From a virus: a stretch of 22,279 bases of DNA. The notes below the pieces were generated by a model. It worked only from the letters and a program-made list of their open reading frames with translations. It was not told where the DNA came from and did no database searches. Positions 6,009-13,862 of this stretch are shown one piece after another. Numbering within the stretch: the stretch's first letter is position 1; every line of letters starts with the position of its first letter. The position numbers and the translations under genes are program-made. Location of the stretch: positions 1 to 22,279 of the IMG/VR virus record IMGVR_UViG_3300030329_002386; one strand, 5' to 3'.

Positions 6009-6366
6009 GGGCAACAAATTTGAAAGAGACTGTTGCAAAAAAGCAGAATTATTTGAAATCCCATCTAAAAGAGCTTGGGGTAGTGATGGAAGGTCTATGG
6101 GATTAAACCCAGAGGTTGATATGGTTATCGGAGATAAAAAGTACAATGACGAAACGCACATACAATGCAAGATTAGAAAGCGATTACCAGAGTATATATT
6201 TCCAAAAGATGATGCTATAGATTGTCAGCTTATTAGAGAGGATAGAGGCGAAGCCTACATAGTTATTAGGTATGACGATTACCTTGCGGATATGCGCCGA
6301 TTAAGGCAATTAAAAGACCAACTAGACGCTTACCAAGTCTCTACAAACGAAAACGTCACAGAATAG
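5986..6366 (+). CDS. Hjc-like PD-(D/E)XK resolvase/nuclease
   Basis: 126 residues from ATG 5986 with AATAGGAGAAAA upstream. Layout follows archaeal Hjc-like and phage resolvases: KGNKFERDCCKK (Glu13), KRAWGSDGRSMGL (28-40), EVDMVIG (Asp45), HIQCKIRK (Gln60, Lys62; Gln in place of the usual Glu, as in many members), then a C-terminal helix. Expected role: resolving branched replication/recombination intermediates or trimming DNA before packaging. It is the last plus-strand gene and its 3' end overlaps the end of the convergent tail gene by 37 bp, with no obvious terminator between. Confidence 0.75.
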   Translation: MSHPSKIKGNKFERDCCKKAELFEIPSKRAWGSDGRSMGLNPEVDMVIGDKKYNDETHIQCKIRKRLPEYIFPKDDAIDCQLIREDRGEAYIVIRYDDYLADMRRLRQLKDQLDAYQVSTNENVTE

Positions 6367-7538
6367 ACCCCAGGGGCAACTTGTTTTATTGTAGAATTTG
6401 ATTTACTTAATCTACAAATCACAAAATCTTTTTTTGTATTATCTGGTTGAAAAATAAATGGTATTTGCCCACCTAAAGTATAATTTAAAAAACTAGAAAC
6501 TATACTTTCATCTTCATCAAAGGTAAAGCCTGAATTAGAGCCTTCTGTTATAGGTTCATAATCACCACTTAAATTTTTATAAAAGTTTTTAGGGAACATA
6601 TCAGTTTTGTCTATATAGCTAAATGTCACAGTAAAACTTCTTCTTCCAGTTCTTCTTGTTGCCTTATTGTCTTCATAGTTTACTGCATAAGCTAAATCTA
6701 AATCCATATCTTGATATGACTGTAGGTCTATATTAGTCCAAGGGGCAAAATCTCCCCAGTTTGGAGACTGATAATAATCAATTTGTGTCATTTCGTCCCC
6801 AGAAATTGTCTTGTTTGATTTTATCCCAGAATAGTCAAATGTTTGACTTACATTCAAATCTGCATTTTGTGGAAAATCAAAATATCTCCCAACTGTCGCC
6901 GAGCCTATCCTTAATTCCTCTCCTTGTAAAAATGTCCCTTCATTTGTACCGTCTGGGTATTTAATAAGCGAGCTAAATACCAATTTTATCTTGTCAGCGT
7001 TCCCATATTGAAATCCTGATATAGTAGACAACTCTCCATCATCTTCAAACTCTCTCCCTGACCAAGCACCCGTTGAATATAAAGTAGAGCCCAAATCTAG
7101 GAACTTTCTCGCTCCTAGAATATCGCTGTAGTCCGACATGTAATTAGCTAATTGGGATTCATTGTGGTTCTCTGTTTTAAAATGCGTATCTCTAGTTGTT
7201 CCACCTATTCCAATTTCTCCAAAATTGTGATTTAAAATTCCACCATAATTTATAGTAGAAATAAATTGCTGCACCTGCCTAGGCTTATTTGTTTCTTGGT
7301 AGTAATTTAGATTAACTCCAAACGCTATCCATTTTACGTCACTACCCACAACTACCCCAGCTGAAACTTTAGATGGATTAAAATCCCATGCGTCCATAGG
7401 GTTAAAACTTGCATCAAAACTTAATACGCCTGGGCTTGTATAACTGTCAACTAACCCTACAGCCTTTAGGTACTGCACATAATCTACATAAACCCTTGGT
7501 TTTGCTACCTTTCCATAAGAATCTATCGACAAAGACAT
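6330..7538 (-). CDS. Distal tail protein B (paralogue without carbohydrate-binding module)
   Basis: 402 residues from ATG 7538, ribosome binding site AAGGAG. It is paralogous to the gene immediately upstream: both start with SYG-V--PR-(Y/F)VDY-QY-KAVG, share GRY(F/Y)DFP--(A/P)DL-V, then WGD(F/Y)(A/S)PW-NIDL, TG(R/K)R-F----SY-DK---FP-NF and the C-terminal GGQIPFIFQPDN. As the last virion genes after the tail hub, both probably form tail-tip or side-fibre structures at the host contact. Family unknown. It ends convergently with the resolvase gene. Confidence 0.75.
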   Translation of the reverse strand: MSLSIDSYGKVAKPRVYVDYVQYLKAVGLVDSYTSPGVLSFDASFNPMDAWDFNPSKVSAGVVVGSDVKWIAFGVNLNYYQETNKPRQVQQFISTINYGGILNHNFGEIGIGGTTRDTHFKTENHNESQLANYMSDYSDILGARKFLDLGSTLYSTGAWSGREFEDDGELSTISGFQYGNADKIKLVFSSLIKYPDGTNEGTFLQGEELRIGSATVGRYFDFPQNADLNVSQTFDYSGIKSNKTISGDEMTQIDYYQSPNWGDFAPWTNIDLQSYQDMDLDLAYAVNYEDNKATRRTGRRSFTVTFSYIDKTDMFPKNFYKNLSGDYEPITEGSNSGFTFDEDESIVSSFLNYTLGGQIPFIFQPDNTKKDFVICRLSKSNSTIKQVAPGVYSVTFSFVETW

Positions 7539-7539
7539 C

Positions 7540-9054
7540 TTATATCTCCTTAAATTTCATTGAAATCGAATAGACTCCATTTGCTTCTTGGTTTATTTTC
7601 AAAGACGGCTTATCTAATTTACAAATTGCAAACTCTGCGATTTCATTATCTGGTTGGAATATAAAAGGTATCTGTCCGCCCATAGTAAATGTAAGAAAGT
7701 TTCCAATAATATTATCTTTATGTGTACCAGTATTGCTATCAGTCCAAGACCCTGCTGGTGTTATAACTTTTTTTACGCTAACATTATCTATAGTGCCAGC
7801 AAAACTACTATTTGCTGTGAATTTAAAACTTTGATTGTACGCAAATGCAGAGCGATTCTCAGCGTAATATATTTTTTTAAGCTTCACTCCTCCAGTGCTT
7901 TCTATGAGCTCGCCACCCGTTCCTCCAGTTTCTACGTATTGTGAGCCTAACCTAAATTGAATAGTACCCGCCGTTGATGTTATATCAAACTCAATTTTAA
8001 ATGTTTCCCCAATTTCTGCGACATTTTCTTGAGATACGGCTGTGGTTATTAGTTGACTCCCATCAATGGTGGCATTTCCACCAGAAAGATTCCAATCAGT
8101 CCATCCGCTTCCGCTAGGACCTAGTTCATTCCAGTAAGATGTACCATCTGCAAATGTCCCATTTTGTATCAAATTGTCGCTCAATTCTTCAGATGAGCCA
8201 TACTCAAGAGCCATATTGCCATTAAAATTCATAGGAAAAATATTTTCTTTATCTAGGTATGAATATTTTATATCAAAGGTTCTCTTGCCTGTTCTTGAAA
8301 TAGAACTATAATCTTCATCTCCGCCTTCATTCAGGTCTATGTTAACCCAAGGAGAGTAGTCTCCCCATTTTTTAGGTTTGGTGTAGCTATAGCTTCTTAA
8401 ATCACTTCCACCTGAAGTTCGGACTGTTTTTATGCCTTCATGCCTATAAGATATTTTTACGTCCAAGTCTGGAGAATATGGAAAATCATAGTATCTTCCA
8501 GATGAAAATGCTCCTATTTTTATAACTTGACCAACATTCCAGTCTACACCTTCATTTCCTCGATTTATTTTGAAACCCAATCTATCAAAATATTTCATAT
8601 CTCCCAAGTCATAATTATTACTAACAAAGCTATTTATTTTCCATATATTCGTACCCACATTTTGTCTAGCTGTGCTACGACCTAAAATACCACTTTGACT
8701 CGCATATCCTTCTTGTACTTTTGATTCAACATATCTTTCAGGGTCAATAGTTGATATATTGTGACCTAATAATGCTCCATAGTTCGCAGTAGATAATAAA
8801 TGTCTAAATTGTAGATTATCATAATCTGAATCAGAAAATATTTTAGCATAAGCTCCAAAACTACCATCAGATTGAGATGTAATTTCAAATGTCGCAACAT
8901 TTGATGGATTCATATCCCATAGGGCTTCAGGATTCGTTGACAATGATATATGATTGTAATGTAATTTTTCAAATATACCGACAGCTTTTCCATACTGGAT
9001 GTAATCTACAAAGATTCTCGGAGTTCCGACTGAACCATAACTACTTTCGGACAT
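7540..9054 (-). CDS. Distal tail protein A with inserted carbohydrate-binding module
   Basis: 504 residues from ATG 9054, overlapping the upstream gene by 14 bp. Residues 1-290 and 431-504 align with the paralogue at 6330-7538 (VDYIQYGKAVGI, GRYYDFPYSPDLDV, WGDYSPWVNIDL, GGQIPFIFQPDN). The extra ~137 residues (294-430) look like a CenC/CBM4_9-type carbohydrate-binding module: N-terminal NLIQNGTFADGTSYWNE, an internal beta-rich stretch with ITSTAGTIQFRLG, and the closing TIDNVSVKKV. I infer a tail-tip protein that adds glycan binding to a shared virion scaffold. The scaffold itself matches no family I can name. Confidence 0.8.
   Translation of the reverse strand: MSESSYGSVGTPRIFVDYIQYGKAVGIFEKLHYNHISLSTNPEALWDMNPSNVATFEITSQSDGSFGAYAKIFSDSDYDNLQFRHLLSTANYGALLGHNISTIDPERYVESKVQEGYASQSGILGRSTARQNVGTNIWKINSFVSNNYDLGDMKYFDRLGFKINRGNEGVDWNVGQVIKIGAFSSGRYYDFPYSPDLDVKISYRHEGIKTVRTSGGSDLRSYSYTKPKKWGDYSPWVNIDLNEGGDEDYSSISRTGKRTFDIKYSYLDKENIFPMNFNGNMALEYGSSEELSDNLIQNGTFADGTSYWNELGPSGSGWTDWNLSGGNATIDGSQLITTAVSQENVAEIGETFKIEFDITSTAGTIQFRLGSQYVETGGTGGELIESTGGVKLKKIYYAENRSAFAYNQSFKFTANSSFAGTIDNVSVKKVITPAGSWTDSNTGTHKDNIIGNFLTFTMGGQIPFIFQPDNEIAEFAICKLDKPSLKINQEANGVYSISMKFKEI
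7765..8175 (-). other. Carbohydrate-binding module inserted in tail protein A
   Basis: Codons for residues 294-430. The NG-F----YW start, two beta-strand blocks and the ending IDNVSV are the hallmark of CBM4_9/CBM6-type jelly-roll modules, in which the I-(D/N)-(N/D)-V-x-(V/L) strand closes the fold. The sibling gene has only a short linker (EGSNSGFTFDEDESIV) at the same point, so this is an in-frame gain in one copy or a loss in the other. The ligand cannot be read from sequence. Confidence 0.65.
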
Positions 9055-9493
9055 TTTTAACCCTTATTATTTCTTTATTTTTATCATTTAGTTTTATCTC
9101 TTTACCCATCCTAGTATACTTTAATTCCGTTTTTTGTATTTTTTTATATTTATTTGTTTTATTAAAATCTTCATATTTTGTATCTGAGACGCTCCATTTC
9201 GATTTAGATATTTTAAAGTCATCCATCATTCGACTTACTAAATGCTGCCTTATCTCATCCCCATTTTCATCATAAGCTTTAAATGTTATTATTTTAAAGT
9301 CTCCCTCGTATGTCATTAACTCTTCTTCTGGTGGGGACATAAACACAATTAACATCCTTTTACCATTTATCCCGCAAACTGTATTACCATGAACCTCGCC
9401 AGAAAACACACCCTTATACTTTATATCAAGCACTACAATATTATCTTTAACTGAATCTAGGTTAACCTTATTATGTGTCTGTATTATTTTCAT
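9041..9493 (-). CDS. Tail-associated hypothetical protein
   Basis: 150 residues from ATG 9493, one base after the stop of the tail-hub gene, with AAGGAT as ribosome binding site. The N-terminal half looks beta-rich (NIVVLDIKYKGVFSGEVHG, KRMLIVFMSPPEEEL) and the C-terminal 60 residues are very lysine-rich. No signal peptide or membrane segment. Placed between the hub and the two distal tail proteins, it is probably a minor tail or baseplate-assembly protein, but nothing more specific can be said. It overlaps the next gene by 14 bp. Confidence 0.6.
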   Translation of the reverse strand: MKIIQTHNKVNLDSVKDNIVVLDIKYKGVFSGEVHGNTVCGINGKRMLIVFMSPPEEELMTYEGDFKIITFKAYDENGDEIRQHLVSRMMDDFKISKSKWSVSDTKYEDFNKTNKYKKIQKTELKYTRMGKEIKLNDKNKEIIRVKNVRK

Positions 9494-9494
9494 A

Positions 9495-12400
9495 TTATCC
9501 TTCTAGTACCAATGTTACCATGCCAACCACATCGAGTATATCAATCAGTCCATCTTGATTAAAATCTGCATTGATTACACTTTGTTCATCGAAACCATTC
9601 TCGACTGTTATTAACAGATTTCCTAGTACGTGCTGAACTATTTTTATAATATCTTGCACATTAACATCTCCGCTAAGGTCTACGTCACCAGGTATAAAAG
9701 GGTCTACGATAGATATAACTGTTAGATGTGAAGTATCTTCAGGAGAGACAAGACCATCGTTATCTTCACACCTAGCTGCATGACCAAAAGTTTTTCCAAG
9801 CATTTCTTCTGTTACCGTAAAGGATATTTGTTTTATTTCTCCGTAGCCATCTTCATACCATGTTTCAAGGGAAAAATTAACATCACTATTTTCTTGAAAT
9901 GAGGCAAATCCATCTACAATCGTGTCAGCTCCAAGCATATGGAAGTCCCACCAAGATTCTATAGTTCCACCATCCACATTATCTGTAGTTGCATCACTTC
10001 TTATTATAACAGTGTCCCCAGGAAAAAAAGTGTACCTTTTTGCATCTTCAACGTTAATACCCCATAAGCCCATTGTAACATAATTTTCCACAGTCATGTC
10101 AACCACAGGTCTAGTAGGCGGCGGGGGGTACTCACAAGTACCATTATCTAAGACCGAATCGGGGTTGTAATTTGTTGCTGCGGGGTCAGTGCATCCAAAA
10201 TATCCTTCTGGGAACACACAGGAATCGTCATCATACGTTGCTTCAGGGTTATAATTTGTTGCGGCTGCATTCATGCACCCAGGGACTGGGGGGTCATAGT
10301 CACAACTAGCATCATCTACAGTTGCATCTGCATTATAATTATTTGCAAGTGGGTCTGTGCATCCAGCTATAGTTGGGGTAAAATCAGACGATGTTAGATT
10401 TAATTCATGTAATTGTATTGCTTCTATGGTAACTTCTTTTAAATTCTTACTACAAGAAGTTATCATGTAGATTGGATAAATATATTGATTTATATTGGTG
10501 TGTCCATGGACTAAACTTCTCCCATAGCAATTTGTATCGTTAATATTATCGTCAAACGATATTATATCACCCACTTCTAAATCAGCAGCCTCTAAAAAAG
10601 GTAAAGTTAATTTTAACAATAAGTGCTGATGCTTGTAAAATTCAAACATAAAATCTCTTAGCTCTATAGCTACAGAGTCAGATTGAATGTATGGAGCGTC
10701 TATTTCAAGAAGATAATTATCTTCATCTCCTGGGATTACCCCGTAATAATTTCTATACCTTGTCCTTATAGAATCTCCGCTGTCTTCATTTGCGTCAAGT
10801 GTTATTAATGATGTTCTACGCTCATTTTTATTAGTTAAATAATTATAGCGATAATTTACTAGGCAACCCCCTATACATAAATCCTCCATTTTTGTCTTTG
10901 TGAAACTAAACTTAATTACGTTCTCTGATTTTATTTTTTTATCTACATCCCCACCTTGGGATTTTAAATTTGTATTGTATTGATTTTTTATAGTCCCTAT
11001 TTCAGCCTTTCCATCTCTAGCTCTGTACCTAAAAAATAATCTTGATTGTCTACATATATCTTCTATAATATCTTTAGAGTTTTTAACCTCATTTATAGAA
11101 AAAGCCATACTTGTATTTCTGTCTTCATTTAAGGCATTTAAATACTTGTCTTCATCTATCATGTTATCAGAAACATTCATTTCTGTCTGCATTAAATTTC
11201 TTATAATTTGTGCGGGTTTTTCTATTAATATAGGAGCATTTGGAGTTTCATTTTCCTCTCTCCATCTAACAAAACTAAGTCCGTAACCTGTAAATGTTGT
11301 ATCATCAGTATCTGTTGGGTCAACCCAGTACCCATTAGGATTATTAAAATAATCATTTAGAGTGCTATGTTCCTCCCTCAAAATTTCTGAAATTTCATTT
11401 GGATTTTCTCCGTATATAATCCTACCGTAAACTAATTTAAACCCTTTCATGTAATAAGTTGGGTAAGAATTTTCCTGGGCTACCCCAGCGCTGTAAAATA
11501 ATCCCGAATCAGAAAAATGAACTTTTTTTGCTTTCATATAAAAATCCCATCCCTCTACACCTGTTGCGGTTGGATATGAATCCACTGCATCACCAGCTGG
11601 GCTCTCGCTGGCTGGTAATAAATATGTACGCAGGACACCCGAATTATATTGCACTGGACTAGAATTTACAGATGGTGAGCGCCAGTGCATATTCTCTATC
11701 TCGATGTCATATATATAGCAATCAGACATTTCATCGTAAAGCATTACTTGATAAATATGACCATTTATATTTTTAGTTTTAGCAAGTCCGTCGTGAAGTA
11801 TTGAATGTAATCCTCTTGCGTGCCTATTTTCTCTGTTATACCCAGCTACAGGGTTTCCTTCGCCCCCTAATTCTGCAAATTCTTTAAGGAGAAGAAATAT
11901 ACCTTGGTATATATTATCTAGGTCACCAGGATGAAGAACAGTGATTACACCTTGTATTGTACTTACATTTTCATATTCACCTCCAACTCTACCTTTTGCG
12001 TCTACAAAAAACTCATTAGAGAATACATCCGCCTCAGCCCAAGCTCGCCTCAAACCTAATCCGCCAAGTCCTACAAGTGCATCGTAAAATATATAATCAT
12101 TGTCTTGGTCACCCAAAGAATTAGTATCTGGATAGTGATAGAAAGATATAGCGTTACAATTTAAACCTTGCCAATTCCACTGGTCTTGAGAGCCCCCTTG
12201 AAATTCAGCACGAAATGGCTTGCCCATACCAGCACCACCTCCAGTGGACGCTAGATATTGATAGTCAAAATAGGATTTATATGAATATGCTGCATTGTCA
12301 GAATTATTTTCATGACTTAAGCCTTTGAATGTGAATTCATAAACCGCAGACATTTCAAACTTATCTTTAATTCCATTGGGAAACCAACCATTATTTACGT

Positions 12401-13862
12401 AATCAAAAATATTTGAATATGCGTCATTAAGACTAACCAACTCTGAGGGAAACCCCATAGCTTGCGCAACATCCACATAATCCTCCATTGGAGTAGTTAT
12501 GTCACCCTGTGCATCTTCGTCAATCTTAAACCCAGATGGATATGCGTAAACTTTATGGGTTGACAATTCTGGCGAACTTTCTCCACCTTTATAAATCATC
12601 GACAAGGCTATATTCCCAGTTATACTTAAATCCACAGGGTATGGAGTTAAATTTCCATCTGAATCTTCCTCTTTGTATGTATTATAGCCAGATAGTGGCT
12701 CGAAATTTACCTTCTGAACACCAATGCTTAAACGAAGAACATCTTTGTCTGGAAGTAATCCTGGAATATCAGAAGGCACAGTACCTATGTTTTTCCTTGT
12801 AGACAAGTCTTTAAAAACATCTCTTCCTCCATCATCGTAAACCACATATAAAGGTCTATCAGCATTAGCCTCTTGACCATGTAAAAATAAAGTCATACTT
12901 TGTCTTGATTTCACCCCTGAGAAAGAATGTACCCATAAAGCACTATTGAAAAGTATAGTTTCATAATCTCCATACTTGGAAATCATAGATATTCTATCTC
13001 CTTTAGTCTGATACTGAGGGTAATTATGATAATCTTCAGCTATTACTTTGTTTGTATTTATATAAGGCAAACAATTAACGTAATAATACTCACTGCTTAC
13101 GCCAATCATTAATGTCCTGTCTACTTTTAAATGACACTCAAGATATTCTGCTTCATCATATACTCCAGGAATTGTAAAGTTTTTAACGCCATGAACTTGT
13201 ACATCTCCTGATGTTATAGCAGAATTATCAAATAATATTTCTATTCCATTATCTGAATATAAATCAGTAGTATCAACTGTATTCATATAAGGTATCGCTG
13301 GGGCTTTACTTAGATGACCAAACAAAATAGGGACTGGCTTATTTTCATGAGCAGCAAAGGTTCGCCCTGGAGTCAACACACTCTCATGCCCTGGTAAATC
13401 AATAAAAAAACTATCAAGACTTACATCATTAGCATTTATAGTAATCTTGTCGGAATCATGCACTATTCTCGATATTTTAAGTTTAGCAATTAAGGCGCAA
13501 TCAGTTATATCTTGGCAACTTTGAGTCTTTAGGTATACGCTTATAATCTGACCTATTCCATTGCCAATCCTATCGGAAAGCCTACCGCTTGAGTTTTTAA
13601 AATTATTAAAGGATATATTTACGTTTGATAGATTTATTTTCCTTGTCCTTAAATCTATTTTCTCTCTTATCCCGCTTATTTTTAAATTTAAATCCTCATA
13701 AAAGACTGCATTGACGCCAAGCTCGTCATCGTCAAACATTTGCTGTCTTGTTCCGATGTATAACTTAGGAAGTGGAGTTTGTCTTTCTATTGAGATAAGA
13801 TACTCAGCGCTTGTCACGAAAGAACTTAGGTCATTTTTTATTCTATCAGTTAATTCAATCAT
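9495..13862 (-). CDS. Tail tip/hub protein with GCTD repeats and C-terminal dockerin
   Basis: 1455 residues from ATG 13862, which overlaps the tape-measure stop. Directly after the tape measure, residues 1 to ~1160 occupy the place of the tail-tip/baseplate hub: the start SAEYLISIERQTPLPKLYIG and the segment KDIIEDICRQSRLFFRYRARDG (~930-950) resemble hub proteins of long-tailed phages. Then come three 28-residue-spaced Cys repeats (1167, 1195, 1223: GCTDPLANNYNADATVDD and variants), a Pro linker, an Ig-like stretch (~1255-1388) and a type I dockerin (1392-1455). The C-terminal ~290 residues look borrowed from host secreted proteins, though reading frame and codon use continue without a break. 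Confidence 0.85.
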   Translation of the reverse strand: MIELTDRIKNDLSSFVTSAEYLISIERQTPLPKLYIGTRQQMFDDDELGVNAVFYEDLNLKISGIREKIDLRTRKINLSNVNISFNNFKNSSGRLSDRIGNGIGQIISVYLKTQSCQDITDCALIAKLKISRIVHDSDKITINANDVSLDSFFIDLPGHESVLTPGRTFAAHENKPVPILFGHLSKAPAIPYMNTVDTTDLYSDNGIEILFDNSAITSGDVQVHGVKNFTIPGVYDEAEYLECHLKVDRTLMIGVSSEYYYVNCLPYINTNKVIAEDYHNYPQYQTKGDRISMISKYGDYETILFNSALWVHSFSGVKSRQSMTLFLHGQEANADRPLYVVYDDGGRDVFKDLSTRKNIGTVPSDIPGLLPDKDVLRLSIGVQKVNFEPLSGYNTYKEEDSDGNLTPYPVDLSITGNIALSMIYKGGESSPELSTHKVYAYPSGFKIDEDAQGDITTPMEDYVDVAQAMGFPSELVSLNDAYSNIFDYVNNGWFPNGIKDKFEMSAVYEFTFKGLSHENNSDNAAYSYKSYFDYQYLASTGGGAGMGKPFRAEFQGGSQDQWNWQGLNCNAISFYHYPDTNSLGDQDNDYIFYDALVGLGGLGLRRAWAEADVFSNEFFVDAKGRVGGEYENVSTIQGVITVLHPGDLDNIYQGIFLLLKEFAELGGEGNPVAGYNRENRHARGLHSILHDGLAKTKNINGHIYQVMLYDEMSDCYIYDIEIENMHWRSPSVNSSPVQYNSGVLRTYLLPASESPAGDAVDSYPTATGVEGWDFYMKAKKVHFSDSGLFYSAGVAQENSYPTYYMKGFKLVYGRIIYGENPNEISEILREEHSTLNDYFNNPNGYWVDPTDTDDTTFTGYGLSFVRWREENETPNAPILIEKPAQIIRNLMQTEMNVSDNMIDEDKYLNALNEDRNTSMAFSINEVKNSKDIIEDICRQSRLFFRYRARDGKAEIGTIKNQYNTNLKSQGGDVDKKIKSENVIKFSFTKTKMEDLCIGGCLVNYRYNYLTNKNERRTSLITLDANEDSGDSIRTRYRNYYGVIPGDEDNYLLEIDAPYIQSDSVAIELRDFMFEFYKHQHLLLKLTLPFLEAADLEVGDIISFDDNINDTNCYGRSLVHGHTNINQYIYPIYMITSCSKNLKEVTIEAIQLHELNLTSSDFTPTIAGCTDPLANNYNADATVDDASCDYDPPVPGCMNAAATNYNPEATYDDDSCVFPEGYFGCTDPAATNYNPDSVLDNGTCEYPPPPTRPVVDMTVENYVTMGLWGINVEDAKRYTFFPGDTVIIRSDATTDNVDGGTIESWWDFHMLGADTIVDGFASFQENSDVNFSLETWYEDGYGEIKQISFTVTEEMLGKTFGHAARCEDNDGLVSPEDTSHLTVISIVDPFIPGDVDLSGDVNVQDIIKIVQHVLGNLLITVENGFDEQSVINADFNQDGLIDILDVVGMVTLVLEG
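9498..9689 (-). other. Type I dockerin domain at the tail-hub C-terminus
   Basis: Codons for residues 1392-1455. Two F-hand calcium loops are complete: GDVDLSGDVNVQD (Asp1393, Asp1395, Ser1397, Asp1404) and ADFNQDGLIDILD (Asp1433, Asn1435, Asp1437, Asp1444), each followed by the dockerin helix (IIKIVQHVLG and VVGMVTLVLEG). This is the normal double-repeat layout. In cellular proteins dockerins bind cohesins or anchor secreted modules; on a phage hub the partner would be a host or virion cohesin-like domain, which the window does not show. Confidence 0.8.
10128..10364 (-). repeat. Three GCTDPxAxNYN-type repeats in the tail hub
   Basis: Codons for residues 1167-1245. Repeat starts at G1167, G1195 and G1223, exactly 28 residues (84 bases) apart. 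Each has GC(T/M)(D/N)xxAxNYNx(D/E), then a D-rich turn and a closing (S/T)C, so two cysteines per unit that probably form a disulfide, with acidic turns able to bind calcium. The first and third keep GCTD; the second has GCMN. Such repeats are common in secreted proteins of marine FCB-group bacteria. Confidence 0.8.

Follow-up and report, generated by a model that had tools for sequence, protein, structure and literature searches.

The window, by which we mean the whole 22,279-bp stretch of DNA analysed, is a fragment of an uncultured phage whose minus strand encodes a tail tube protein (PF18906), a tape measure protein, a 1455-aa hub and distal tail proteins (Table 1).

The hub gene and its neighbours

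The hub gene lies immediately downstream of the tape measure gene, an order also found in a Marinimicrobia prophage. Its conserved core was modelled with AlphaFold2 from an alignment of 27 members (alignment A1), giving a pLDDT of 88.9, and a Foldseek search of the PDB matched the model best to the tail-tip hubs of Chi, JBD30, T1, lambda and T5 (E = 6e-10 for 8vjh, 1.4e-9 for 8rk3, 1.8e-9 for 9l9p and 1e-8 for 8xcg). Hubs of the lambda gpJ, Chi, T1 and T5 pb3 type thus share with the window hub both the fold and the position after the tape measure gene. On its modelled fold and gene order, the 1455-aa protein is a siphophage tail-tip hub of the lambda gpJ type, which bears out the preliminary description of it as a phage tail hub.

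The core terminates at a conserved Q-[LVI]-H motif and is followed by cysteine repeats, a spacer and a dockerin. Virion proteins from Synechococcus phages contain similar repeats, as does the single-cell virus AG-345-P14, and tblastn matches to the window hub were confined to this part of it; tblastn with three hubs returned no cultured or named phage relative. The spacer found no match in a Pfam search of the hub, and an Ig-like fold is our guess from its sequence. Two relatives (L040 and L077) have the hub divided into two adjoining genes (562 + 838 and 660 + 817 aa), with the dockerin on the second.

Table 1 Features of the hub locus, in positions of the window
Feature	Position	Strand	Basis
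Tape measure protein, 838 aa	13862..16378	-	Similar to annotated tape measure proteins (tblastn)
Tail-tip hub gene, 1455 aa (P0001)	9495..13862	-	ORF; position after tape measure; core hub fold
Conserved N-terminal hub region, ~residues 1-230	13173..13862	-	Region matched in relatives (phmmer)
Conserved tail-hub core, residues 871-1157	10392..11252	-	Alignment A1, AlphaFold2, PDB matches
Three GCTDPxAxNYNPxxxxDDxSC-type cysteine repeats, ~residues 1165-1250	10113..10370	-	Sequence
Probable beta-sandwich (Ig-like) spacer between repeats and dockerin, ~residues 1255-1385	9708..10100	-	Predicted from sequence only
C-terminal type I dockerin, residues 1391-1455	9498..9692	-	PF00404; AlphaFold2; PDB fold matches
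F-hand 1 (calcium loop DVDLSGDVNVQD + helix), residues 1393-1414	9621..9686	-	Sequence; column conservation in 80 relatives
F-hand 2 (calcium loop DFNQDGLIDILD + helix), residues 1433-1454	9501..9566	-	Sequence; column conservation in 80 relatives
150-aa gene directly 3' of hub	9041..9493	-	Start conserved in close relatives
504-aa distal tail protein, PR[IV][FY][VI]D.. family	7540..9054	-	Variable in close relatives
402-aa paralogue of 504-aa distal tail protein	6330..7538	-	

The 504-aa distal tail protein carries an insert (NLIQNGTFADGTSYW...) that is missing from its 402-aa paralogue and looks like a carbohydrate-binding jelly-roll. Another contig of the same phage (G001) opens with a further partial copy of these paralogues (L005:2-490) and encodes a cytosine-5 DNA methylase (L005:3153-4091) and a ParB-N6/N4 methyltransferase fusion (L005:6392-7483). 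Terminase and capsid matches were too distant for naming a host.

A dockerin at the end of the hub

The last 64 residues of the hub had been described as a type I dockerin with both calcium loops intact, and residues 1391-1455 are confirmed as such. PF00404 matched with 25.3 bits in a six-frame search of the window and 25.9 bits for the isolated domain, above the cut-off of 22.9; a scan of the full 1455 aa gave only 17.9 bits (E = 0.0037), so whole-protein annotation would miss the dockerin. The double F-hand fold that the preliminary description anticipated was obtained when a 73-aa stretch was modelled with AlphaFold2 from an alignment of 80 hub dockerins (pLDDT 94; helices 20-31, 44-50 and 60-72). 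The top 32 PDB matches of this model were all dockerins, most with TM scores of 0.7-0.9 and rmsd of 1.1-3 Å, although the small size of the domain kept the individual Foldseek E-values weak (none better than 0.004).

The two calcium loops read D-V-D-L-S-G-D-V-N-V-Q-D and D-F-N-Q-D-G-L-I-D-I-L-D, with a helix after each. All ligands are present; position 5 of loop 1 is Ser in the window hub and Asp in 78 of 80 relatives, which makes this dockerin slightly divergent. Fold and double F-hand are common to cellulosomal type I dockerins (PDB 2ccl, 1ohz, 4uyq and 6kgf), as are the calcium ligands at positions 1, 3, 5, 9 and 12 and the near-symmetrical repeats. Cellulosomal dockerins, however, are borne by polysaccharide-degrading enzymes rather than by a phage tail hub, and where the recognition positions of the Clostridium thermocellum dockerin are Ser-Thr, those of the hub dockerin are mostly hydrophobic (V/I-L). 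The hub also differs from its structural relatives: the matched PDB tail hubs have other tip domains and, as far as the listed matches show, no dockerin, whereas the tip of the window hub is a module type of secreted bacterial proteins, unlike the tips of the lambda, Chi, T1 and T5 hubs.

Only two contigs in IMG/VR carry close relatives of the full hub, and prevalence was therefore read from alignments of the core. A DNA pattern for the dockerin loops retrieved more than 120 IMG/VR contigs. With the window hub, stripped of its own dockerin, as query, some 27 of the long proteins ending in a dockerin were recognised as homologous hubs; alignment A1 was too heterogeneous to serve in a pattern scan. 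Two further scans used the hub core alone and were thus free of selection for the dockerin. Of the hubs that they recovered, 127 have an intact 3' end and 112 of these end in a dockerin, as the preliminary description had expected of close relatives, and since the seeds were themselves dockerin-bearing, this proportion describes the present clade and not gpJ-like hubs overall. Among the other 15 are a frame-shifted copy (L136), three hubs with half a dockerin (L223, L226 and L227) and a clade cleanly without the domain (L231, L233, L234, L235 and L237). Members of this last clade have short terminal tails such as GRGGGGY.

In 42 of 50 whole hub-family records a dockerin scored above the Pfam cut-off, nearly always singly and in the hub frame, and it usually ends 0-4 residues from the stop. 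All 80 non-redundant hub dockerins matched PF00404 (E <= 0.01), and the calcium-ligand Asp residues are conserved in 79, 78, 80, 79 and 77 of the 80, and in 78 of 79. A chance PF00404 match is excluded by the shared ligands of all 80 relatives, and recent contamination with host DNA by the in-frame dockerins at hub ends in more than 100 contigs. A dockerin fold is also present in unnamed viral proteins of 830-1374 aa in BFVD (A0A516LCZ1, A0A516M0J5 and others), whose size and terminal fold suggest that they belong to the same hub family.

We found nothing on tail-hub dockerins in a literature search. Two phage papers mention dockerins in passing, one in describing structural resemblance to a carbohydrate-binding module of cellulosomes (PMC5967307) and the other as a blastp note (PMC3558961).

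Exchange of dockerins between near-identical hubs

Hubs that are 97-99% identical in the core may bear dockerins only 44-73% identical. The window hub and L002 share 99% of core residues (dS 0.06) but 73% of dockerin residues (dS 0.67); for L186 and L190 the values are 97% (dS 0.08) and 44% (dS 1.37), and for L202 and L191 they are 99% and 58%. The opposite pattern was also found, with core and dockerin dS of 0.44 and 0.03 (L256 and L257), 0.41 and 0.02 (L166 and L171), and 0.57 and 0.03 (L149 and L145). This excess of synonymous change shows exchange of DNA, beyond fast amino-acid change. Directly 3' of the hub, DNA identity in close pairs returns to 0.93-0.99 over the first 300 bp (0.97 for the first 300 bp of the 150-aa gene between the window and L002).

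Across 13 close pairs, calcium ligands differed at 5 of 130 sites and other dockerin sites at 191 of 429. Positions 7, 15, 18 and 19 changed most, so that the helix-surface positions 15, 18 and 19 are among the most changed, and the helix-core positions 20-21 changed little. Judged by these sequence comparisons, the hub dockerin behaves as an exchangeable specificity module on a fixed scaffold. In several close pairs with nearly identical hub cores, DNA identity falls again, to 0.72-0.81, within about 300-900 bp past the hub; this further variable stretch, at the start of the distal tail protein adjoining the hub, is a likely second host-range locus.

Probable hosts and a candidate receptor

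We searched 84,980 genomes at the DNA level for a helix motif taken from hub dockerins (DGx[VI]N[VI]LD[VI]VxLVNxIL) and obtained 58 stretches in total, nearly all in Candidatus Neomarinimicrobiota (Marinimicrobia, SAR406). The exact motif is present in only 7 of the 110 unique hub tails; a looser form is found in 48 of them, compared with 2 of 92 viral dockerin proteins that are not hubs. We also compared the 80 hub dockerins with a library drawn by PF00404 alone and limited to Marinimicrobia, Bacteroidota and other viral dockerins. Marinimicrobia gave the best match for 63 (the window's included), other viral dockerins for 16 and Bacteroidota for one; 77% still matched Marinimicrobia best in a size-matched draw. 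We treat this comparison as supportive only, because Bacteroidota contributed just six usable sequences and segmentation was by a hub-derived profile. Placement follows the same lines: 21 of 32 sampled Marinimicrobia dockerins sit 0-4 residues from the protein end, as in the phage, whereas all six Bacteroidota library dockerins have ~190-250 residues after them. The hub dockerin thus shares subtype and protein-terminal placement with non-cellulosomal dockerins of Marinimicrobia, although the latter are on cellular proteins.

A profile of the hub core matched 4 of 245 Marinimicrobia genomes, with top scores of 160, 151 and 108 bits, and 1 of 242 Bacteroidota genomes, where the match scored 54 bits and covered part of the core; a pattern scan for hub group B found no relative in the 84,980 genomes. 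One Marinimicrobia prophage hub lies on a 502-kb contig with a capsid-tail module, followed by host genes that we take, from reading their translations, to be dnaX, recA and alaS. The Marinimicrobia prophage hubs end at the Q-L-H motif with no dockerin, which suggests that the dockerin was a later addition to an older hub and makes the tie of the dockerin-bearing clade to this phylum an indirect one. Together, these comparisons indicate Marinimicrobia as the likely hosts of the dockerin-hub phages and, we infer, of the window phage itself.

PF00963 cohesins were found in 150 of 244 Marinimicrobia genomes versus 83 of 242 Bacteroidota genomes, and in 22 of 24 genomes picked by the helix motif. 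A recurrent carrier, ~250 aa long, begins like a signal peptide and combines one cohesin with a T9SS-type C-terminal domain (NYPNPFNP...), and other Marinimicrobia carriers have a lipobox-like start (...GCGGGG); from these sorting signals, the cohesins would be displayed on the cell surface. PF00963 was absent, even at E = 1, from 50 hub-family phage records, many of which are fragments, and from G000, G001 and G002, records that may likewise be incomplete. Nor did these phage records, possibly fragments, hold a cohesin-bearing scaffoldin in the same genome as the dockerin, as a cellulosome would.

The preliminary description suggested that the dockerin would suit docking either to a cohesin-like host surface protein or to another part of the virion, and had proposed looking for cohesins in the phage and its predicted hosts. 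Our results support this, with the host cohesin favoured, because cohesins are present in the probable hosts and were not found in the phage records, and because the dockerin is swapped as a specificity domain would be. We put at roughly 0.6 the probability that the dockerin forms the tail's receptor-binding tip, mimicking host dockerins and docking on host surface cohesins. Weighing against this reading are the rarity of the exact helix motif in hub tails, the dockerin-less Marinimicrobia prophage hubs, the cohesins and the one partial hub-core match in Bacteroidota, and the hub sub-clade that does without a dockerin. In lambda gpJ the C-terminal end is the receptor-binding part; the dockerin occupies the same place in the window hub, and its location at the tail tip is deduced from the position of the gpJ C-terminus. 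Core, spacer and terminal dockerin would then place a host-type plug at the tail tip, the phage copying the C-terminal dockerin ending of Marinimicrobia proteins. As calcium is scarce in the cytosol and plentiful in sea water, the dockerin would fold, and turn sticky, only after release; by plugging into a surface cohesin it would bring the hub to the cell surface, and a dockerin swap would lead to a different cohesin and a different host. That a widespread family of uncultured marine siphophages adsorbs in this way, by mimicry of Marinimicrobia dockerins and with host range altered by dockerin exchange, we rate at slightly better than even odds.

Dockerins serve as assembly joints in cellulosomes, and the hub dockerin could be such a joint for a side fibre or tail-tip protein with a diverged cohesin-like domain. 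The distal tail proteins adjoining the hub have no recognised fold and could hide the partner, and the close pairs that differ in the dockerin also differ in the variable stretch of these proteins. This family is, however, equally present beside dockerin-less hubs, and a calcium-dependent assembly step would fall in the low-calcium cytosol; with PF00963 absent from the 50 records, many of them fragments, and the likeness to Marinimicrobia dockerins left unexplained, we consider a joint unlikely. Marginally less probable again is a dockerin scaffold captured from the host and re-purposed for a non-cohesin surface molecule, whether a sugar or another protein: fast change at exposed positions and swapping would fit any receptor-binding domain, but the host subtype and C-terminal placement have been kept, and a partner of the same type explains this most simply. 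A partner-less, calcium-dependent cap stabilising the hub end would suit the strong conservation of the calcium ligands and the intact coding of some hubs without a dockerin, but it is improbable, since neither block exchange between hubs with near-identical cores nor change mostly at helix-surface positions would be expected of it.

If docking of the hub dockerin on host surface cohesins is correct, it would represent a new mode of phage host recognition, one that exploits the dockerin-cohesin plug and socket of the host itself. It would also suggest a receptor for the phages of SAR406, a lineage abundant in the ocean, on whose phages our literature search found almost nothing. The hub dockerin and the candidate cohesins are small, and their predicted interaction is open to study in vitro without culture of host or phage.

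Some Marinimicrobia proteins join cohesin and dockerin, and one 1.5-Mb Marinimicrobia genome (G056) has 58 dockerin matches. A literature search for Marinimicrobia with dockerin and cohesin found nothing; this genome and the SAR406 loci L326-L389 appear to represent an undescribed dockerin-cohesin system. Dockerin-like elements were also seen in other viral proteins. A BFVD lysozyme (A0A8S5SX96) has a dockerin-like fold, and in four other phages (L073, L079, L111 and L121) one dockerin-like calcium loop lies within short proteins of ~177 aa that are perhaps lysins.
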